The notes under the pieces were generated by a model. It saw only the letters and a list, made by a program, of their open reading frames with translations. It was not told the origin of the DNA and made no database searches. Made by a program: the position numbers and the translations under genes. Below, piece by piece: positions 36,993-51,058 of a DNA stretch of 64,000 bases. The stretch comes from Spirochaetota bacterium (GTDB lineage Bacteria > Spirochaetota > Spirochaetia > Treponematales > UBA12059). How positions within the stretch are numbered: the first letter of the stretch is position 1; each line of letters starts with the position of its first letter. The stretch is from positions 248,001-312,000 of the forward strand of contig JAKLDN010000003.1 of NCBI GenBank assembly GCA_022703505.1, in the 5' to 3' direction.

Positions 36993-38609
36993 CTACTTGT
37001 GCTTGCGCAGGATCAGGTCGTCATACTCCGAGGCGTCGATGGAGGCCTCCACGATGACGGGACCGTCCGACTTGAACGCCTTAGATAGGGCGTCCCGGTA
37101 ATCCGAGGCGTTCCCGGCGCGGATCACGGGGACTCCGAACACGGAATCCGCGTGCGGGTAGTCCCGGTCCAAGAGGTCCGTACCGTACCGGGGCATCTTC
37201 TTCTTGTCCTGCTTCAGGCGGATCAGGTCCAGGCTGCGGTCGTCCAGCAGGACGAACACGATCGGTAGTCCGATCCTGCGGGCCGTGGCCATCTCTCCGG
37301 CCATCATGTGGAAACCGCCGTCTCCGGTCACGCAGGCCACCTTCCGGTCCGGGCGGCAGAGCTTGGCGGCCAGGGCGGCGGGGATGCCGAAGCCCATGGA
37401 CGACCATCCGTTGGTCATCAGCTGAAGCCCCGGGGCGGGGGTCCTCCACATCTGGCCGACGAGGTGGATGTGGGCTCCGACGTCGCAGGTCATGATTCCG
37501 TCTTCGGGCAGGGCTTCCCGCAGGCCGGCCAGGGCCGCCCGGGGGCCGAAGGATCCCGGAGGCGGCTCCATGGCCCGGAACATGGCGTCGCGCCGCCCGG
37601 CCAACTCCTTGAGGTCCCAACGGGAATCCAGGGGAGCCAGGGCTTCCAGCCTGAGAAGGGATGTGCCGATATCTCCCGTCACGTCCGTGACCTCGGGATA
37701 GAGGATTCGGTCGATGTCCGCGGGAAGGGTGTCCAGGCAGAGCAGGGGAACGGAGGGCATCCAGTCCTCGTAGTTGAACTCGATGGGATCGTACCCGACC
37801 GCCACCACCAGGTCCGCCTCCTTGTGGGTTGCCGCCACACGGTCGGACAGGGCATGGAAAAGAACCCCGACGTAGAGGGGATGGTTTTCCGATACCAGGC
37901 CCTTGGCCATGGGGGTCAGGATGATGGGCATCCGGTGCTTTTCGGCGATCCGGATCAGCCGGGGACCCAGGCCCGCACGGACCGCGGACAATCCGACGGC
38001 CAGGACGGGCCTGCGGGAAGCGGACATGGCGGTTTCGATCGAGCGGAGGGCATCCTCCGAGGCCGGGCCCAGGGTACGCACCGGGGGCAGACCCGCGGCG
38101 ACGGGAGAGTTCGTGGTCTCCTTGGGACCCAGATCCTCGGGCAGGCCGATGTGTACGGGCCCGGGCATGTCGGAGAGGGCTATCTGCAGGGCCTGGTCGA
38201 GGACCTGGTCGACCCTGTCCGGAGCGAGGCGGGTGGTCCACTTGGTCAGGGGCCGGTACAGGGCCTGGTGGTCGACGGCCATCTGGACCGTGCGGCCCAG
38301 CATCTTCTCAGGCGGCTCGCTGGTGAACGCCAGGAGAGGGGAGCGGTCCAGGAGTGCTCCCCCGACCCCTGTGCTGAGGTTCGTGGCACCGGGTCCCACG
38401 GTACCGTAGCAGGCTCCCGGGATACCCGTCAGGCGGGCGGAGACATCGGCCATGAACCCGGCGGTAGCCTCGTTCGCGACCAGCACGAAATCCACGCCGC
38501 CGGCTCGCATGGCATCCATATAATAGAGCCACGAGCCGCTGGGTACGCCGAATACTCGTCGGATACCTGCGCTGCGCAGGCGGGCTACCAATCTCTCGGC
38601 GACAGTCAT
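36993..38609 (-). CDS. TPP-dependent 2-oxo acid decarboxylase/synthase (acetolactate synthase superfamily)
   Basis: 538 residues with the three-domain POX/ALS layout: Pyr domain with catalytic Glu47 (VANEATAGFMAD), central domain, and PP domain with GDGGFHMMAGE followed by LLDDRSLDLI. The usual Asn-Asn after the GDG motif is Asp-Asp here, as in some decarboxylases and catabolic acetolactate synthases. No FAD-type signature can be called by eye. The substrate could be a 2-oxo acid formed by the adjacent aminotransferase. ATG 38609 has GGAG upstream. Confidence 0.87.
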   Translation of the reverse strand: MTVAERLVARLRSAGIRRVFGVPSGSWLYYMDAMRAGGVDFVLVANEATAGFMADVSARLTGIPGACYGTVGPGATNLSTGVGGALLDRSPLLAFTSEPPEKMLGRTVQMAVDHQALYRPLTKWTTRLAPDRVDQVLDQALQIALSDMPGPVHIGLPEDLGPKETTNSPVAAGLPPVRTLGPASEDALRSIETAMSASRRPVLAVGLSAVRAGLGPRLIRIAEKHRMPIILTPMAKGLVSENHPLYVGVLFHALSDRVAATHKEADLVVAVGYDPIEFNYEDWMPSVPLLCLDTLPADIDRILYPEVTDVTGDIGTSLLRLEALAPLDSRWDLKELAGRRDAMFRAMEPPPGSFGPRAALAGLREALPEDGIMTCDVGAHIHLVGQMWRTPAPGLQLMTNGWSSMGFGIPAALAAKLCRPDRKVACVTGDGGFHMMAGEMATARRIGLPIVFVLLDDRSLDLIRLKQDKKKMPRYGTDLLDRDYPHADSVFGVPVIRAGNASDYRDALSKAFKSDGPVIVEASIDASEYDDLILRKHK

Positions 38610-38645
38610 CGATGCACTCCTTGAAAAAGGGGAATATCCACGATC

Positions 38646-38686
38646 ATATATCATATATTTATAACATTCTTGTACAGTATTGGCAA
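38646..38686 (-). promoter_or_regulatory. promoter and operator of the TPP enzyme operon
   Basis: On the minus strand TTGCCA (38686-38681), 17 nt, TATAAA (38663-38658), directly followed by TATATGATATAT (38657-38646), which covers the start point. The same 12-mer is at the promoter of the divergent GntR gene. Confidence 0.7.
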
Positions 38687-38748
38687 GGTGAAAGTTGAAA
38701 TTGGGTAGAATCCGCCCTATCCAGTGTGGTCCGTTCAGAGTATTTTCA

Positions 38749-38777
38749 TGGACAGTATGAAGTATATGATATATAAT
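38749..38777 (+). promoter_or_regulatory. promoter and operator of the GntR gene
   Basis: TGGACA (38749-38754), 17 nt, TATAAT (38772-38777). TATATGATATAT at 38763-38774 overlaps the spacer and -10 box, ideal for autorepression. Confidence 0.72.
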
Positions 38778-38792
38778 GCTCGCGGTGACATC

Positions 38793-39461
38793 ATGAACAA
38801 GAAAATTACCGCCATGCCGATCCGCGAACAGCTCTACGAAGCCGTCAAGGAGTCCATCCTTCGGAACGCCTTCATCCCCGGTTCCCTTCTGCAAATCGAC
38901 CGCCTCGCGGAGGAGTACGGGGTCAGCGCCACCCCCGTCCGGGAGGCCCTGGTACGCCTGGAATCGGACGGTTTGGTAACCCTCATCCCGAACAAGGGCG
39001 CCCAGGTCACGGAGATCACGGAAAAGGATATTCGGGAAATATGGGAGATGCGCCGGCTTCTGGAACCCTATGCGGCCCGATCCAGCGCCCCGGCCATTTC
39101 GGAGGAGGATATCTCCGGACTCGAGCGCCTGATCCTGAATCTCCGGGAAGACCCGTCCAATACGGAACTCTATATCAAGACGGATATTATGCTACACGAG
39201 ATGTTGTACTTCCATTGCCCGAATTCCTATCTTCGGGAAACCCTGAGAAAGGTGCACGAGGTCTCATACCGGATCCGATACTTCGCGGAGAGCAGAAAGA
39301 CCATGCATGACACGGTCATTCACGAGGTGATTCGTGAACATTTGGACATTCTGGATATCCTGCGTTCCCGAGACCCCGACCGGATCGTTGTTGCCGTCAG
39401 CTCCCACCTGTTGAACGGCGAGAGAAGAGCCCTTTCTGCCCTTCCCAAGAGCAAGTCCTAG
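38793..39461 (+). CDS. GntR-family regulator, FadR/FCD subfamily
   Basis: 222 residues: winged helix-turn-helix (about 8-75, REQLYEAVKESILRNAFIPGS, YGVSATPVREALVRLESDGLV) and an all-helical FCD ligand domain (EIWEMRRLLEPYAA, with acid/His metal ligands further on, LHEML and HL). It probably represses the divergent TPP/aminotransferase operon and itself through the shared 12-bp sites, and perhaps the TRAP genes downstream. The longer in-frame ATGs upstream overlap the promoter, so ATG 38793 is used. Confidence 0.9.
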   Translation: MNKKITAMPIREQLYEAVKESILRNAFIPGSLLQIDRLAEEYGVSATPVREALVRLESDGLVTLIPNKGAQVTEITEKDIREIWEMRRLLEPYAARSSAPAISEEDISGLERLILNLREDPSNTELYIKTDIMLHEMLYFHCPNSYLRETLRKVHEVSYRIRYFAESRKTMHDTVIHEVIREHLDILDILRSRDPDRIVVAVSSHLLNGERRALSALPKSKS

Positions 39462-39714: not shown

Positions 39715-41679
39715 GTGGAAAAGAAAGCAGAGACTGCGGCGGCAGCCGAAGCGGCCCCGGATGGAGAGAAGATCCTCCAGCAGATCGACCGGGAATCGGG
39801 ATATCGCAGGAATGTCGACCTGTTCTGGAAATATGTGATCTTCGCGATTTCCGTGGTCTTCATATCCTACCATATGTGGACATCCCGGTTCGGGATGCCC
39901 GAGGTGATCAAGCATCGAGCGATCCACGTCGGATTCATTCTGTTGCTTGTCTTCCTGTATTTCCCTTCTTCGAAGAAATCGCCCCGGAACCGGCCCACGG
40001 TGTTCGATCTCATCCTGGCCGCGCTGTCCATCGGCATGGTCCTGTACACCCTTCTGCAGAGGGATGCCTTCCTCAAGCGTGGCGGCGTGGCGGAGCCCAT
40101 GGATCTCATCGTGGGAGGCGTGGCGATCCTGCTGGTATTGGAGGCCTGCCGAAGGTCCGTGGGGCCCCAGCTCCTCATCCTGTGCATCGTCTTCCTCCTG
40201 TACGCCTGGGGTGGACGGTACATACCGGGGATCCTTTCCCACCGGGGCCACTCCCTCGAGCGGATCATCTACCAGATGTACCTGACCAGCCAGGGAATAT
40301 TCGGCATGCCCATCGGGGTTTCGTCGACCTACCTGATCATATTCGTGGTACTCGGGGCCATGCTGGACAAGAGCGGCCTGTCCAAGCTGTTCAACGACAT
40401 CGCCCTGGCCATCGGGGGACGCCTTACGGGCGGTCCCGCCAAGGTATCCGTGGTGGCCAGCGCCCTGGTCGGCATGATCAGCGGGAGCGCGGCGACCAAC
40501 GTGGCGACCACGGGGGCCTTCACGATCCCCCTCATGAAGAAGGTCGGCTACAAGCCGTACTTCGCGGGGGCCATCGAGGCCGCCGCCTCCACGGGCGGGC
40601 AGTTCATGCCCCCCATCATGGGCTCCGTGGCCTTCATCATGGCCGAGTTCCTGGGGGTGCGCTACCTGACCATCGCCGGAGCCGCGATCATCCCGGCCCT
40701 CCTGTACTTCGCGGGGGTCTTCTTCCAGATCGACCTGCGGGCCCGGTCCATGGGACTCCGGGGACTCTCGAAGGAGGAGATCCCGAACGTCTGGAAGACG
40801 ATTCTGCGCTACGGCCAGATGATCATTCCCATCTTCGTGTTGGTGTACCTGCTGTTCGAAGGGCGAACCCCGCTCTACGCGGCCTTCTATACCGTGGTGA
40901 TCACCGCCCTCCTGTCCTGGATCCGCAAGGAGACCCGGATCGGCGCCAAGGAGTTGCGGGATGTGGCGGTCAACTCCGCCCGGAGCTCCTTGAGCATCGG
41001 CGTGGCCATGGCCAACGCCGGGTTCGTGGTCGCCGTCCTCTCCATGACGGGCATCGGCATCATCCTGGCGGACAATATCGTCCGGCTATCAGCGGGCCAG
41101 CTCCCGATCGCCCTGTTCCTATGCATGGTGGTGTCCATCATACTGGGCATGGGCCTGCCGACCAGCGCCTGCTACGTGATCGCCGGGTCCATCGCGGTGC
41201 CCATTCTAACCAAGATGGGGGTCCCCCCCTTCCAGGCCCACTTCTTCGTGCTCTATTTCGCCTGCCTGTCTACCATCACCCCGCCGGTGGCCCTGGCCGC
41301 CTACGTCGGGGCGGGGATGTCCGGAGCCTCCCCCAACAAGGTGGGGTGGACCGCCTTCCGCCTGGCTCTGGCCGGGTTCATCGTGCCGTTCTTCTTCATC
41401 TACAACCCGGAGATGCTCCTGATCTCCGATTCCAAGCTCGCGATCATCTGGTCGGCGATCAGCGGGCTCGCCGGCACCGCCCTCCTGGCCGTGGCTGTGG
41501 AAGGATACCTCACGAAGCGGATCATCTGGCCCCTCCGTATCGTGTTCGGCGCCGCGGCCCTGATGCTCATCGCCCCGGGCCTCCGGACCGACTTGATCGG
41601 CCTGGGCCTGACCCTGACGGGCTTCGCGGGCGTGAAGTTCCTTCCCGCCGCCAAGGAGCGTAAGGCCGCCGCGGCATGA
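39715..41679 (+). CDS. TRAP transporter fused small/large permease (DctQM type)
   Basis: 654 residues with some 17 hydrophobic segments: a DctQ-like N-terminal part (to about residue 170) fused to a DctM-like channel (GMISGSAATNVATTGAFTIPLM, GLPTSACYVIAGSIAVPIL, TPPVALAAYVGAGMSGA). Such fusions go with TAXI-type binding proteins, as here. It imports an organic acid with Na+ or H+. The start is GTG 39715, supported by AAGGGG 6 nt upstream. Confidence 0.93.
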   Translation: MEKKAETAAAAEAAPDGEKILQQIDRESGYRRNVDLFWKYVIFAISVVFISYHMWTSRFGMPEVIKHRAIHVGFILLLVFLYFPSSKKSPRNRPTVFDLILAALSIGMVLYTLLQRDAFLKRGGVAEPMDLIVGGVAILLVLEACRRSVGPQLLILCIVFLLYAWGGRYIPGILSHRGHSLERIIYQMYLTSQGIFGMPIGVSSTYLIIFVVLGAMLDKSGLSKLFNDIALAIGGRLTGGPAKVSVVASALVGMISGSAATNVATTGAFTIPLMKKVGYKPYFAGAIEAAASTGGQFMPPIMGSVAFIMAEFLGVRYLTIAGAAIIPALLYFAGVFFQIDLRARSMGLRGLSKEEIPNVWKTILRYGQMIIPIFVLVYLLFEGRTPLYAAFYTVVITALLSWIRKETRIGAKELRDVAVNSARSSLSIGVAMANAGFVVAVLSMTGIGIILADNIVRLSAGQLPIALFLCMVVSIILGMGLPTSACYVIAGSIAVPILTKMGVPPFQAHFFVLYFACLSTITPPVALAAYVGAGMSGASPNKVGWTAFRLALAGFIVPFFFIYNPEMLLISDSKLAIIWSAISGLAGTALLAVAVEGYLTKRIIWPLRIVFGAAALMLIAPGLRTDLIGLGLTLTGFAGVKFLPAAKERKAAAA

Positions 41680-41837
41680 CCCCGAAGGAGCGGGGCCCCG
41701 ACCCTGGGGTTCCGCGTCCGTCCCCGGCGCGCCGGCCCGTCCGGCGTACCGGGCTCGAAAAGTGCCAAGGCCATCGTGGATGGCTGGATATAGTTCGAGA
41801 TCCGTCGCACGCGGACGGTAGATTAGGAGGAAGGAAG

Positions 41838-42839
41838 ATGACGAATCTGAAGAAGGGATTCGCGCTGCTCGCGGTGGCGGCCCTGGTCCTGCTCGCGGCC
41901 TGCGCCCCCAAGACGGAAGCCGCCAAGCCGGCCGCTCCCACGGAAGTCCGCCACATCACCATGGGCACGGCGGGCGTGGGCGGTTCGAACTATCCCACGG
42001 GCATCGCCATGTCGGCCCTGTGGAACGCCAACATCCCGGGCGTCAAGGCCGTGGCCATCGCAACCGGCGGGAGCCCCCACAACATCGACCTCTTGCGCAC
42101 CAAGGACGCGGACGTCGCCGTCTGCCGCTCCCTGGAGGCCTACCGGGCCACGAACGGCATCGAACCCTACAAGGAGAAGATGCCCTGGCTCCGGTCCCTG
42201 ACGGGCGGGCTGTTCACGGACGTCTTCCAGGTAGTGGCCGTTAAGGCAAGCGGCATCAAGAGCGTGGCGGACTTCAAGGGCAAGCGGATCGTCGTGGGCC
42301 CCGTCGGTTCCGGCGGCGAAGTGGACGCGCGGGAAACCCTGGCGGCCTACGGCCTGACGTACGAGGACATGAAGGTGAGCTTCGTGGAGTTCGCCCAGGG
42401 CATCGACATGATGAAGGACGGTCTCGCGGACGCCGGCATCATCGGCCTGGCCATGGGAGCCTCGGGCATGCAGGAACTGCTACTGGACGGCAAGGTAGGA
42501 CTCATCCCCATCACGGACGAAGCCCTGGCGAACCTCCGGAAGAAGAACGAGTTCCTCATCCGGCGCAACATCCCCGCGAACACCTACCCCAACCAGCCCG
42601 AGGCGGTCCCGACGGTCGGAACCCCCCCGGACATCATCATCGTCCGGGACGACATGCCCGAGGACCTCGTGTACCAGATGACCAAGACCCTGTACACGAA
42701 CCTGCCCGCCATCCACGCCGTCTCGGCCCTGTTGACCCAGTTCACCAAGGACCTGGTGCTGCCCGAGGATCAGATGCTGATCCCCTATCACCCCGGCGCC
42801 AAGAAGTACTTCGTGGAGATGGGCTGGCTGAAGAAGTAG
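41838..42839 (+). CDS. TAXI-family TRAP transporter substrate-binding lipoprotein
   Basis: 333 residues. Lipoprotein signal: MTNLKKGFALLAVAALVLLA then AC, with cysteine near residue 22. TAXI-type body: ITMGTAGVGGSNYPTGIAMS, IATGGSPHNIDLLRTKDADVAVC, and KRIVVGPVGSGGE. It delivers the ligand to the fused permease encoded just upstream. ATG 41838 has AGGAGGAAGGAAG. A strong terminator follows, closing the unit. Confidence 0.93.
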   Translation: MTNLKKGFALLAVAALVLLAACAPKTEAAKPAAPTEVRHITMGTAGVGGSNYPTGIAMSALWNANIPGVKAVAIATGGSPHNIDLLRTKDADVAVCRSLEAYRATNGIEPYKEKMPWLRSLTGGLFTDVFQVVAVKASGIKSVADFKGKRIVVGPVGSGGEVDARETLAAYGLTYEDMKVSFVEFAQGIDMMKDGLADAGIIGLAMGASGMQELLLDGKVGLIPITDEALANLRKKNEFLIRRNIPANTYPNQPEAVPTVGTPPDIIIVRDDMPEDLVYQMTKTLYTNLPAIHAVSALLTQFTKDLVLPEDQMLIPYHPGAKKYFVEMGWLKK

Positions 42840-45838: not shown

Positions 45839-46513
45839 TCAAGACAGGTCGACGGACTCGCATAGTGAGAACGCTTGTATCAGCAGGTTTCGGTACTCCG
45901 GCTCCGGGATGGGAATGTCCGGAAGGACGGCATGCCGGAAGAAGTAATCCGAAGCCTCGTACAGGTCGAAGTCGAGGATTCCCGTGGACACAGCCTTGAA
46001 GATGGATTTTGCCGCGGCGTTGGTGGTGACGATGAAGGCGACGAGTTCGGCCTCGGTGAGACGCCTTCCGTAGAGGGAGGCCAGGAAGACCGTGTCCTTG
46101 AAGGTCGTCCGCTTCAACCGATCGATGTTCTCCCGGTCGTAGTCCGCGAAGTTCACCAGGTCGTAGTAGACCGCGTGGGTGGCTTTGTTCAGGGCTATGA
46201 ACCGGAACAGCAGGATGTACTCAACGAACACGCTGAGGAGCAGGGGGCGGCGGAGTTCCTCGGCGGAGGCGTTAGCGTCGGATTTCGGCACGACCCGTTC
46301 CGCCGCCGCGTAGATACCCTCCACGTAGGTGTCGAAGACCGCCCGGGCGGCCTTCTCCTTGTCCGTGAAGTGGTAGTAGAAGGAAGCCCTGCCGATGCCC
46401 GCCTCCCGGGCGATGTCTCCGATGCCCGTCTCGTAGTAGCCCCGCTCCGAGAACAGCCGGGCAGCGGCCTTTAGGATACGCTCCCGAGTTTCCCCGCTTT
46501 TTCTGTACGCCAT
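45839..46513 (-). CDS. TetR-family transcriptional regulator
   Basis: 224 residues. Helix-turn-helix near the N-terminus: TRERILKAAARLFSERGYYET, IGDIAREAGIGRASFYYHFTDKE. The C-terminal ligand domain is not assignable. It is divergent from the M20/DUF5058 unit, with likely operators in the 194-bp gap, so it presumably represses that unit. ATG 46513 starts the HTH region; the frame is open further upstream but without support. Confidence 0.9.
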   Translation of the reverse strand: MAYRKSGETRERILKAAARLFSERGYYETGIGDIAREAGIGRASFYYHFTDKEKAARAVFDTYVEGIYAAAERVVPKSDANASAEELRRPLLLSVFVEYILLFRFIALNKATHAVYYDLVNFADYDRENIDRLKRTTFKDTVFLASLYGRRLTEAELVAFIVTTNAAAKSIFKAVSTGILDFDLYEASDYFFRHAVLPDIPIPEPEYRNLLIQAFSLCESVDLS

Positions 46514-46539: not shown

Positions 46540-46596
46540 TTGAAATTCGACAGCTGTTTGAAATTCGTTGACAGCCCGGCAAGGCGGGTTTATAGT
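46540..46596 (+). promoter_or_regulatory. promoter and TetR operator of the M20/DUF5058 unit
   Basis: Perfect TTGACA (46568-46573), 17 nt, TATAGT (46591-46596). Just upstream, TTGAAATTCG occurs twice (46540-46549, 46558-46567) around the palindrome ACAGCTGT (46550-46557), a good TetR-type site. Confidence 0.72.
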
Positions 46597-46707
46597 CGAC
46601 CTGTAATTCGGACACATGTTGAAAAACAAGCACCGACCCGAAAAGTATCCCCCGACCGACGTCCGCTGTCAATCTCGGACCGGGCTGGAGAGAATCGGAG
46701 GCAGGGA

Positions 46708-48162
46708 ATGGAAGGGAAGCGCGTCGTACTTGAAAGCGTGGATCGAAACCGGGCGCTCTACGAGGCCTTGAGCGACCGGATCTGGGGATTCGCGGAGACG
46801 GGATTCCAGGAGCGGGCCTCCGCCGCCGCGATCGCCGATCGTCTGGAGTCGGAGGGTTTCACGGTGGACCGGGGAATCGCGGGGATGGAAACCGCCTTCG
46901 TCGGAAGCTACGGTTCCGGGAGTCCGGTCGTCGCGGTATTGGGGGAATACGACGCCCTGCCGGGACTTTCCCAGGCGGCATCCCTTCCGGAGCAGAAGGA
47001 ACTCGATTCCGGGAAGGCAGGGCACGGCTGCGGCCACAACCTCCTGGGGATCGGAGCCCTGGCGGCCGCGGTGGCGGCCAAGGACTTCCTTCGGGATTCC
47101 GGAGTACCCGGCACGGTTCGGTATTACGGATGTCCCGGCGAGGAGTTCGGCTGCGGGAAGACCTTCCTGGTCCGCGCGGGGGTCTTCGGGGACGTGGACC
47201 TGGCCTTCTGCTGGCACCCGAGCGACATCAACGCCGTGTGGCAGGCCCGGACCCTGGCCAACCTGTCGGTCTATTTCCGGTTCCGGGGGAAGGCTTCCCA
47301 CGCGGCGGCTTCCCCCCACCTGGGGCGGAGCGCCCTGGACGCCGTGGAGCTCACGAACGTGGGCGCAAACTACCTGCGGGAGCACATCGTCCCCGAAGCC
47401 CGGCTCCACTACGCCATCACCAACCCCGGGGGCAGGGCGCCCAACGTTGTCCAGGCTTCCGCGGAGTCCTTCTACTACTGCCGGGCCCCCCGGATCGCCC
47501 AGGCCCGGGAAATCTACGAGAGGCTCTGCGACGTGGCCCGGGGGGCGGCCCTGATGACGGGGACGAACCTGGAGATCGTTTTCGCACAGGGGTTGTCCGA
47601 CTACGTACCGAATCTCGTCCTCGGAGAACACCTTCAGAAGTGCATGGAGGAAGCGGGCGGCCCGGCCTTCGACGCGGCCGATCTCGAATTGGCGGAGAAA
47701 TTCCGGGCCACCCTCACGGAGGCGGAGAAGGCCGCGATCCTGGGACAGCTCCGGATGACCCAAGGCCCCGCCGTCCTGGAGGCGATCGGCGGCTCTCCAC
47801 TGGATTCGGTGGTGGGCCCCCTGTTCCGGGGGGATATCTGCCTCCCGGGCTCCACGGACGTGGGAGACGTGAGCCAGGTCGTGCCCACGGGACAGATCGT
47901 CTACGCCGCGGCGGCCCTGGGTACCCAGGCGCACTCCTGGCAGAACACCGCCCAGGCGGGTTCCTCGATCGGGCGCAAGGGGATGCTCGCCGCGGGCCGT
48001 GCCCTGGGATTGGCCGCCGCCGCGGCGTTCCTGGATCCCGCACTCGTGGAGCGGGCCCGGGAGGAGCATGCGTCCAAGGTCGGCGATTCCTATTCCAGCC
48101 CCATCCCGGAAACCATCGAACCGGAGGACGTGCTTCGGTCCGTGAGCAATGTACCGTTCTGA
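46708..48162 (+). CDS. M20 family amidohydrolase, AbgB-like
   Basis: 484 residues. Zinc motif GHGCGHNLLGIGALAAA, catalytic Glu in YYGCPGEEFGCGKTF, dimerisation domain with FRFRGKASHAAASPHLGRSALDAVEL, and late ligands in GSTDVGDVSQVVPT. Close to AbgB, which cleaves aminobenzoyl-glutamate and similar N-acyl amino acids in the cytosol. It is followed by two membrane proteins where AbgT would be expected, suggesting the substrate is imported by them. The leader is about 105 nt and has a weak GGAGGCAGGG site. Confidence 0.93.
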   Translation: MEGKRVVLESVDRNRALYEALSDRIWGFAETGFQERASAAAIADRLESEGFTVDRGIAGMETAFVGSYGSGSPVVAVLGEYDALPGLSQAASLPEQKELDSGKAGHGCGHNLLGIGALAAAVAAKDFLRDSGVPGTVRYYGCPGEEFGCGKTFLVRAGVFGDVDLAFCWHPSDINAVWQARTLANLSVYFRFRGKASHAAASPHLGRSALDAVELTNVGANYLREHIVPEARLHYAITNPGGRAPNVVQASAESFYYCRAPRIAQAREIYERLCDVARGAALMTGTNLEIVFAQGLSDYVPNLVLGEHLQKCMEEAGGPAFDAADLELAEKFRATLTEAEKAAILGQLRMTQGPAVLEAIGGSPLDSVVGPLFRGDICLPGSTDVGDVSQVVPTGQIVYAAAALGTQAHSWQNTAQAGSSIGRKGMLAAGRALGLAAAAAFLDPALVERAREEHASKVGDSYSSPIPETIEPEDVLRSVSNVPF

Positions 48163-48205
48163 ACCGAGAGAAGCCGCAGAGATCGTTTGAATCAAGGAGG
48201 GGAAC

Positions 48206-48922
48206 ATGAATTTCTTCGATGTGGCAAACGGGAGTCTGCTTTTCGTGCTGGTCGGGGCGGGCATCGCCTATGTCCTGGTCCAGTGCGTCCTGTTCCTGAG
48301 GATGTCCCTGAAACGAGCCCGGGAACTCGGCATTGATCCGAAGGTGGTCTCGAACACCATCAAGTCCTCCGCGGTCTTCACCTTGGCCCCCTCCATCGCC
48401 GTGGCCCTGGGCCTGGCCGCCATGGCTGCGAGCCTGGGGATCGCCTGGCCCTGGTTCCGGCTCTCGGTCATCGGAAGCGTCAGCTACGAGCTCATGGCCG
48501 CCAACATGGCCTCCAGCGCCTTGGGATTCGCCAAGCTCGCGGACGCCTCCAAGGCCGGACCGGAACCCCTGGGCGCCATCATGTACGCCATGACCGGAGG
48601 GCTAGCGGGCGCCATCATCTTGGACATTCTGTTCATCAAGAAGGTGGATTCCCTGGCGGTCAAGATGAAGGCCAAGGCGGGCAGTTTCGGGATCGTAGCC
48701 ATCGGCGTGCTCTACTACGCTGTCCTCGCGGTGTTCGTGGCGCCCTTCTTCGGACAGGGCGTCGTGGCTGTGGCTACCTTCTTCACGAGTATCGTCCTGA
48801 CCCTCTTCCAGGGCTTCCTTGCCCGGAAGTTCAAGATCGTCTGGCTGGGGAACTTCATCCTGTCCTTCAGCCTCATCCTCGGTATGTGCTCCGCCGTGCT
48901 CTGGACGGCGCTGGCTAAGTAG
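48206..48922 (+). CDS. DUF5058 family multi-pass membrane protein
   Basis: 238 residues with about six to seven helices. The N-terminal part (GAGIAYVLVQCVLFLRMSLKRARELG, STIKSSAVFTLAPSIAVALGLAA by pattern) and the central helix with RLSVIGSVSYELMAA fit what I know as DUF5058, a family found near M20 amidohydrolases. Function uncharacterised. AAGGAGGGG precedes the ATG; the next gene starts 10 nt after its stop. It probably forms a transporter with that protein. Confidence 0.75.
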   Translation: MNFFDVANGSLLFVLVGAGIAYVLVQCVLFLRMSLKRARELGIDPKVVSNTIKSSAVFTLAPSIAVALGLAAMAASLGIAWPWFRLSVIGSVSYELMAANMASSALGFAKLADASKAGPEPLGAIMYAMTGGLAGAIILDILFIKKVDSLAVKMKAKAGSFGIVAIGVLYYAVLAVFVAPFFGQGVVAVATFFTSIVLTLFQGFLARKFKIVWLGNFILSFSLILGMCSAVLWTALAK

Positions 48923-48932
48923 GAGGGAACCC

Positions 48933-49652
48933 ATGGAAACCCGAGAGCAGTATTTTACCCGAATCAACCGGTTCGGAAGGATCAGCTTCGCGATCTTCTT
49001 CGTGCTGATGTTCGCCATCCCCACCGTGGTCTGCGCGGTCTACGACATTTTCCCCAGCCTGGCCACGGCTCTCAAGGCTACGATGGGCCTGTTCCTGATC
49101 CTGACTCCTATCGCCCTGTCCGAGATCGTGAGTTTCGTGCCCCTTCTGGGCTCGGGAGCATCCTACCTCACCTTCGAGACCGGAAACGTCTCCAACATAA
49201 AGCTTCCCTGCGCCATGAACGCCCTCAAGCTCGCGGGAGTCCAGCCGGCCAGCGAGGAAGGGGAGGTCCTGTCAACCATCTCCGTGGCGATCTCCTCGAT
49301 CGTGACGACCGCGGTCATCATGGCCGCCGCCCTTCTTCTGGCGCCCCTCGCCCCGGTGTTCGCGAACCCCTCGGTTCGGATCGCCACGGCGAACGTCCTT
49401 CCGGCCCTGTTCGGAGCCCTGGTCGTCGCGTTCCTGACCGGCGGCGACTCGGGTCCCGTGGTAATTCGGGGACAGTGGAAGGCCTTCATCCTTCCGCTCC
49501 TGGTCGTGGCCGTCATCCACTACCTGGTATTCCCGATCAAGGGCTGGGAGGGCGTAACGATCCTGGTCCTCCTGCCCATAACGATCCTGGGAGCCCGCTT
49601 CCTGTTCAAGCGGGGACAGATCACCGTGGTGTCCAAGGAAGCGAAACCCTGA
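48933..49652 (+). CDS. membrane protein of unknown family, partner of DUF5058
   Basis: 239 residues, nearly the same size as the DUF5058 protein, with about seven helices: starts ATRINRFGRISFAIFFV-like (residues 9-30), then ALSEIVSFVPLLGSGASYLTF and FLTGGDSGPVVIRGQWK. The polar motif GSGASYL.FETGNVSNIK between helices may be a substrate path. I recognise no named family. AGGAGG is 5 nt before the ATG. Tight spacing argues for a heteromeric complex with the DUF5058 protein. Confidence 0.65.
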   Translation: METREQYFTRINRFGRISFAIFFVLMFAIPTVVCAVYDIFPSLATALKATMGLFLILTPIALSEIVSFVPLLGSGASYLTFETGNVSNIKLPCAMNALKLAGVQPASEEGEVLSTISVAISSIVTTAVIMAAALLLAPLAPVFANPSVRIATANVLPALFGALVVAFLTGGDSGPVVIRGQWKAFILPLLVVAVIHYLVFPIKGWEGVTILVLLPITILGARFLFKRGQITVVSKEAKP

Positions 49653-49723
49653 CCGACCCGCCTCGATGCGGGCCGGGAGTGAACCCGGTCCGCGGCGGTC
49701 GCGTACACCGAGGAAGGCACGAC

Positions 49724-51058
49724 ATGGCGGATTTCAAGGTGAAGGTCGCATGCCGGATCTACGGGTTCCGGCACCGGAAGACGTTCTCCGCGTCGCGTCC
49801 CTTGGAGGGCAACGGGCCGTTCATGGACGCGGACGAGAAATACTGGTGGGGATACAAGTATTACTGGGGCCCGATCGAGGAACCGGAACCCGGCGCGGGC
49901 CTGGAGGAGCATTTCCGAGGCAAGGATCTCGACTTTCGCCCCCGGGACGGGTTCGAGGAGGCCGCCGGATTCACCCTCTGCGTCGGAGGGGACATGATGC
50001 CCTACCCGGGAATCCGACCCGAAACCACGGAATCCCTGTGGGATGACGTGAGGCCCTTTTTCTTCTCCGGAGACCTTGTCTGCGCGAACCTCGAGTCCCC
50101 CGTCGCGCCCTCGCTTCCGGCTCGCTACATACCCGAAAGTATATTGCTGCCCGGACTCCTGAACGGCACTCCGGAGATGTTCGACCGCATCGTCGACGGA
50201 GGACGGGGGGTGACCTTTTTCTCCACCGCCAACAACCACTGCCTGGACATGGGGGAGGCGGGGCTGCGGGAGACCCTCGATTTCCTCGACGCCCGGGGAT
50301 ACCGCCATGTCGGAACCGCCCGGAGCACCGAGGAACGGGACGCGGTGGAGATTGCGGAGCGGAACGGCGTGAAGGTCGCCTTCCTGTCCTTCACCTTCGG
50401 ACTCAACTGGGGCAAGCTTCCGAAAGGCCGGGAATACCTGGCCAATTACGTGCGGTTCAACAAGCCGAACGAGGACCTCTCCCCCGTAGCGCGGCAGGTA
50501 CGGGCGGCAAGGGCGGCGGGGGCAGACGCCGTCGTGGCACTGATTCACTGGGGGCTCGAGTTCGAGTCCTTCCCGGTCCGGAGCCAGGTGGAAACCGCGC
50601 ACCGCCTGATCGAGCTCGGCATCGACACCGTCGTCGGGAACCACCCCCACAACGTCCAGCCCGCGGAGCGCCATACCTATACGGACCCCGAGGGCGTCCG
50701 CCGGGATGGGCTCATACTCTATGCCCTGGGGGACCTGCTGTCGATCCACCGGACCCTGCCGAACTCCCGGCTCGCGTGCCTGGCGCGTATCCGGATCTCG
50801 AAGGGGTCGGTCTCGGGAAAGTCCGCGACGAGGGTGACCTCCCTCGAGACCTTGCCCGTCTACCTGCATGTCGGACGGAGGGGCCGGCAGGTCGTGGACT
50901 ACCGGGTCCTGGATTTCCGGAGGCTGGCGGACTCGCTCCGGGCCGGGGACGATCGGTACGGACTGGGCACCCGGAAGACCCGGGAAGTGTTCCGACTGGA
51001 AGCCCTGCTGCACAGAATCCTAGGTCCGGCCCTGGGTGCCGCAGGCAGCGCGCCCTGA
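49724..51058 (+). CDS. CapA-like metallophosphatase-fold protein
   Basis: 444 residues. The CapA/PgsA domain starts after about 85 residues: TLCVGGDMMP, CANLESPV, STANNHCLDMG, HWGLEFESFP and VGNHPHNVQP give the usual metal ligands. CapA proteins act in poly-gamma-glutamate synthesis or on other cell-surface material. No signal peptide or membrane anchor is visible, and the first 85 residues, rich in Tyr and Trp, are extra. GAGGAAGG precedes ATG 49724, 71 nt after the DUF5058 partner. A link to gamma-glutamyl or N-acyl-glutamate chemistry fits the M20 neighbour, but is inference. Confidence 0.85.
   Translation: MADFKVKVACRIYGFRHRKTFSASRPLEGNGPFMDADEKYWWGYKYYWGPIEEPEPGAGLEEHFRGKDLDFRPRDGFEEAAGFTLCVGGDMMPYPGIRPETTESLWDDVRPFFFSGDLVCANLESPVAPSLPARYIPESILLPGLLNGTPEMFDRIVDGGRGVTFFSTANNHCLDMGEAGLRETLDFLDARGYRHVGTARSTEERDAVEIAERNGVKVAFLSFTFGLNWGKLPKGREYLANYVRFNKPNEDLSPVARQVRAARAAGADAVVALIHWGLEFESFPVRSQVETAHRLIELGIDTVVGNHPHNVQPAERHTYTDPEGVRRDGLILYALGDLLSIHRTLPNSRLACLARIRISKGSVSGKSATRVTSLETLPVYLHVGRRGRQVVDYRVLDFRRLADSLRAGDDRYGLGTRKTREVFRLEALLHRILGPALGAAGSAP

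Follow-up and report, generated by a model that had tools for sequence, protein, structure and literature searches.

A pair of small membrane proteins, DUF5058 and a partner without family name, as a candidate two-subunit transporter serving amide hydrolases

The locus considered here raises the question of why an amidohydrolase gene is followed by two genes encoding membrane proteins of almost the same length, and of what the three products could do together. It lies in a window of 64,000 nucleotides (the whole stretch of DNA that was analysed) from the spirochaete assembly GCA_022703505.1, in which a first-pass annotation had described five genes. All five are present in the order given: a divergent TetR-family regulator of 224 residues (45839..46513, minus strand; PF00440, E 1.7e-16) and, on the plus strand, an AbgB-like M20 amidohydrolase of 484 residues (46708..48162), the DUF5058 membrane protein of 238 residues (48206..48922), a membrane protein of 239 residues without family name, called the partner below (48933..49652), and a CapA-like (PGA_cap) cytosolic protein (49724..51058). 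The near-equal lengths of DUF5058 and the partner, putative transporter subunits A and B, and their spacing by 10 nt, as first described, are exact from stop to start. The start that had been given to the unit, 46540, is replaced: it proves to be only an upstream in-frame TTG, and the M20 gene starts at the ATG in 46708, which has a ribosome-binding site.

The DUF5058 protein matches PF16481 with 173.3 bits over residues 8-227 (gathering score 28.2), and we found no mention of DUF5058 or PF16481 in the papers searched. The partner belongs to no Pfam or NCBIfam family, and a comparison of 40 of its homologues with Pfam gave no credible family either; its assignment relies on its strict co-occurrence with DUF5058. 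Rare co-occurrence of the two had been named at the outset as a ground for giving up the pairing. Instead, the partner and DUF5058 matches above the cut-off are found in an identical set of 27 out of 296 Spirochaetota genomes, nearly always adjoining. At least 543 relatives of the partner are present in genome contigs, 80 of which were taken as named loci; DUF5058 lies directly upstream of the partner in 79 of these, usually with a gap of 1-22 nt, and in the 80th the partner starts 41 bp inside the contig edge. Matrices of pairwise distances, computed for each of the two proteins over 79 loci, show a correlation of 0.94 (shuffled maximum 0.27), a value to which shared ancestry contributes. All these comparisons support the view that DUF5058 and the partner are an obligate pair.

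The pair occurs in Spirochaetota, Bacillota, Pseudomonadota, Actinomycetota and haloarchaea and is common in gut Clostridia, while the unit of hydrolase, DUF5058 and partner is also carried by plasmids of haloarchaea and Paracoccus. A scan of viral contigs for relatives found none. One DUF5058 copy, in the spirochaete genome G031, contains an internal stop. In G126 (L142, L161), which has two pairs, a rearrangement has separated the genes of one of them: on a single contig, DUF5058 lies at 2.918 Mb and the partner at 38 kb. On some plasmids, too, the pair looks damaged (L193, 5220-6681; L195; L196; L198): in Vibrio diabolicus DUF5058 is split into two frames beside transposases, and in Arthrobacter, Paenarthrobacter and a single strain of Paracoccus it is the partner that is split or too short.

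In 96 of 107 loci, an amide hydrolase is encoded immediately next to the pair and on the same strand. Besides the window and the 80 named loci, this set takes in 18 regions from spirochaetes and 8 from plasmids; it may count a few genomes twice, since L062 and G297, and likewise L063 and G305, share CapA identities. Among the 11 loci with no adjacent hydrolase, L081, L094, L101 and L112 are at contig ends, and seven lack one despite neighbouring sequence (L083, L090, L132, L135, L143, L145 and L159). As the window's genome contains 11 M20 matches in 3.66 Mb, we estimate chance adjacency to the pair at well under a few percent. The recurrent association with M20 enzymes that had been proposed is borne out, and it extends over several subfamilies: AbgB-like in the window, L062-L064, L154 and L160, HmrA/CpsA-like in L065, L066, L068, L075, L158 and Paracoccus, CPS1-like (relatives of PRK08262) in most Clostridia and many spirochaetes, and AbgA-like in haloarchaea. 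The place can also be taken by an M19 membrane dipeptidase (L144) or by a Xaa-Pro dipeptidase of amidohydrolase fold (L126). In a tree built from 105 partner sequences, the hydrolase class switches at least nine times, an approximate figure given a quick tree with long branches, and the distance matrices of the pair and of the M20 enzymes of the same loci correlate at 0.79, shared ancestry again contributing.

These sequence comparisons give good support to a membrane system of two subunits that serves an amide hydrolase. Because the two proteins are always together, and nearly always beside an amide hydrolase of varying type, they are probably a two-part transporter feeding the enzyme; and because the hydrolases, of unlike fold, have the amide bonds of dipeptides or amino-acid conjugates as their common target, these compounds are the candidate substrate class, which is our main argument on this point. 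The function that we favour, and consider rather probable, is that of an importer, encoded in an operon that TetR would repress. DUF5058 and the partner would be obligate subunits of one transporter, which would bring in small conjugates of amino acids joined by an amide bond, either N-acyl amino acids or compounds resembling dipeptides; the AbgB-like M20 enzyme in the cytoplasm would then cut this bond, giving an amino acid and an acyl or amine part; and TetR, acting through two operators that straddle the promoter, would presumably be released by the substrate or the product. That there is one complex, that it transports, that it does so inwards and that it takes this substrate class we infer from the comparative evidence.

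The M20 enzyme of the window is in agreement with such a role. It matches TIGR01891 with 243.8 bits (cut-off 153.75), and its proposed likeness to AbgB is confirmed: along its full length 45% of residues are identical in AbgB of E. coli, as against 29% in AbgA over a 249-residue stretch. Its matches among solved structures include HmrA (E 2.6e-40) and a Xaa-Arg dipeptidase (8e-35). The first-pass annotation had pointed to loss of the zinc ligands as something that would undo its reading; the motifs GHGCGHN, GCPGEE, WHP and AHSWQ are all retained, with C108, H110, E145/E146, H170 and H409 as the ligands according to these motifs and to the alignment with HmrA and AbgB, and the reading stands. 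No signal peptide is detected on this enzyme by hydropathy. Two loci with HmrA/CpsA-like enzymes, in a Blautia (L066, 10000-11325) and in a spirochaete (L075, 8735-10009), have a protein of about 430 residues without known family adjoining the pair; one of the two has a C-terminal helix-turn-helix, and these proteins may regulate the unit or act as its sensor.

The direction of transport is the point at which the nearest alternative arises. Gene association alone fits import and export alike, and the pair could be an exporter of amino-acid conjugates or of the products of the cytosolic hydrolase, since neighbourhood and topology are equally compatible with product export and an efflux function has been argued for in some members of the AbgT family. 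The hydrolases themselves incline us towards import. An N-terminal membrane anchor is found in 52 of 55 CPS1-like M20 enzymes, and lysine and arginine are more frequent after the anchor in 43 of these 52 and before it in 3, a bias which predicts a cytoplasmic catalytic domain; none of the other hydrolases sampled carries an export signal. A cytoplasmic hydrolase needs its substrate inside, which favours import. The genes accompanying the pair are, moreover, degradative hydrolases, and two haloarchaeal units adjoin glycine cleavage genes or an operon of them, which fits nutrient use better and weakly hints at glycine conjugates in those two haloarchaea. We consequently regard export as improbable. 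Beside the Paracoccus unit (L194, 6735-12179) lie genes for a beta-keto acid cleavage enzyme, an aminotransferase, a glutamine-type ABC importer and a C45 (acyl-amide) peptidase, and these neighbours may point to the substrate pathway of that unit.

It is slightly less probable still that the pair does not transport at all but acts on the hydrolase from within the membrane, controlling or anchoring it as a scaffold, a sensor or an intramembrane partner. The nearly universal adjacency of hydrolase and pair would be expected in that case too, and known transporter folds gave no match: the single-chain models of the two subunits (mean pLDDT 82 and 79, pTM only 0.60 and 0.57) were matched to no PDB structure, the best Foldseek E values being 0.8 and 2.4 and VIA Z remaining below 5. 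PDB profile searches with both subunit alignments returned nothing meaningful. An absent fold match does not, for all that, demonstrate a new fold. A scaffold or sensor is difficult to reconcile with the exchange of hydrolases of unrelated folds beside the pair, and with the anchor that most CPS1-like enzymes possess on their own, so that a dedicated one is not needed.

The sequences of the two putative transporter subunits contain a further element. Both have a conserved polar or charged interruption between hydrophobic helices, after the second long helix, with E64, TGN, K90 and P92 conserved in the partner and P62, R85, G90 and E95 in DUF5058; transporters often show such a break. When the two families are aligned with hhalign, 107 columns are collinear through the broken-helix motif, with P 0.003 one way round and 0.08 the other way round, and a score of 29 compared to 22 for the reversed control, which is not significant in both directions. 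The helix order is similar in the two models. Taken together, profile alignment and predicted helix order lend weak support to a common ancestry of DUF5058 and the partner. A tentative extension, to which we would give distinctly less credit than to the importer itself, is that they go back to one ancestral subunit, as its diverged halves, and represent a new bacterial and archaeal transporter family, an import module with interchangeable amide hydrolases.

How the unit could be controlled is indicated by the region between the TetR and M20 genes. A paired operator facing a consensus promoter had been described there; the two sites and the divergent TetR gene are confirmed, but the description was rough, the sites being near-palindromic and flanking the promoter. 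Site 1 (AAATTCGACAGCTGTTTGAAA, 46543..46563, plus strand) precedes the promoter TTGACA-17-TATAGT (46568..46596, plus strand; 11/12 consensus), which is followed by site 2 (AATTCGGACACATGTTGAAAA, 46605..46625, plus strand). Both sites have a core ACA-NN-TGT with A/T-rich arms, and their cores are 62 bp apart. L062, L063 and L064 share this arrangement, with sites 61-64 bp apart and a TetR orthologue in the same place (90%, 72% and 45% identity to that of the window, respectively). In a pattern search of the 3.66 Mb genome, the only two matches are these sites, with no others even when one mismatch is allowed. As the pattern was derived from the sites, their own match is given by construction; its absence elsewhere is not, and suggests that TetR is a regulator dedicated to one operon.

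The last gene of the series, the CapA-like one, had been read as part of the unit, with a poly-gamma-glutamate theme. The protein is a clear match to PF09587 (174.2 bits, cut-off 27), and its gene comes directly after the pair in five different genomes, all of one family (the window, G297/L062, G305/L063, G306 and G308), among which CapA identity falls to 65-70%. It is absent beside the pair in L064, where the partner is still 61% identical, and no CapA was detected next to the remaining 77 of the 80 named loci. Being confined in this way to one bacterial family, it is best taken as a lineage-specific companion and not as a core component, and that part of the first reading is given up. The only CapC homologue of the genome is on contig C10 (G000:C10, about 120770-122300; L202, 3770-5319), beside a Mur-ligase-like (CapB-type) gene and with no CapA next to it, and neither CapB nor CapC was found beside the CapA gene of the window. 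That all four plus-strand genes make up one gamma-glutamyl or poly-gamma-glutamate pathway, for which the retention of CapA in the five genomes despite its divergence and the existence of CapB/C-like genes could be invoked, is very unlikely given the absence of CapA beside the pair from L064 onwards and the location of those genes on another contig.

With the importer as the preferred reading, the closest known arrangement is the AbgABT/AbgR system of E. coli, in which AbgA and AbgB jointly cleave p-aminobenzoyl-glutamate (PMC5082436). As there, the window has an AbgB-like M20 enzyme beside a candidate membrane transporter and a divergent regulator, the haloarchaeal units having an AbgA-like M20 enzyme in its stead; unlike there, two small membrane proteins stand in place of AbgT and a TetR regulator in place of one of LysR type. 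No second M20 gene lies beside the unit as AbgA would, and AbgT (PF03806) has no match in the unit or the window and only sub-threshold ones in the genome. p-Aminobenzoyl-glutamate itself, considered as a substrate from the relation to AbgB, was set aside.

Two-gene heteromeric membrane carriers are exemplified by AzlCD and MadLM. The pair resembles these, by description only, in having two small adjacent membrane-protein genes for a proposed single carrier, and differs from them in that its subunits match no profile of a named transporter family. The window M20 enzyme, for its part, matches both PM20D2 (Xaa-Arg dipeptidase) and HmrA, and other pairs are accompanied by CPS1-like enzymes; all three kinds are described as lone enzymes, whereas here the enzyme comes with a transporter-candidate pair. 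A widespread two-gene membrane module, present in gut Clostridia, spirochaetes, Paracoccus and haloarchaea, is thereby given a concrete and testable function. If it is true, DUF5058 and the partner would have a role, the acquisition of N-acyl amino acids or dipeptides by many anaerobes would be explained, and the substrates of M20 enzymes could be assigned through their transporter.

Elsewhere in the window (39715-42839), the gene directly behind a TRAP permease-like one (654 residues) encodes a TRAP solute-binding protein of TAXI type, and upstream of these two lie genes for a regulator of GntR type (38724-39461) and for a thiamine-enzyme-like protein (36993-38894).
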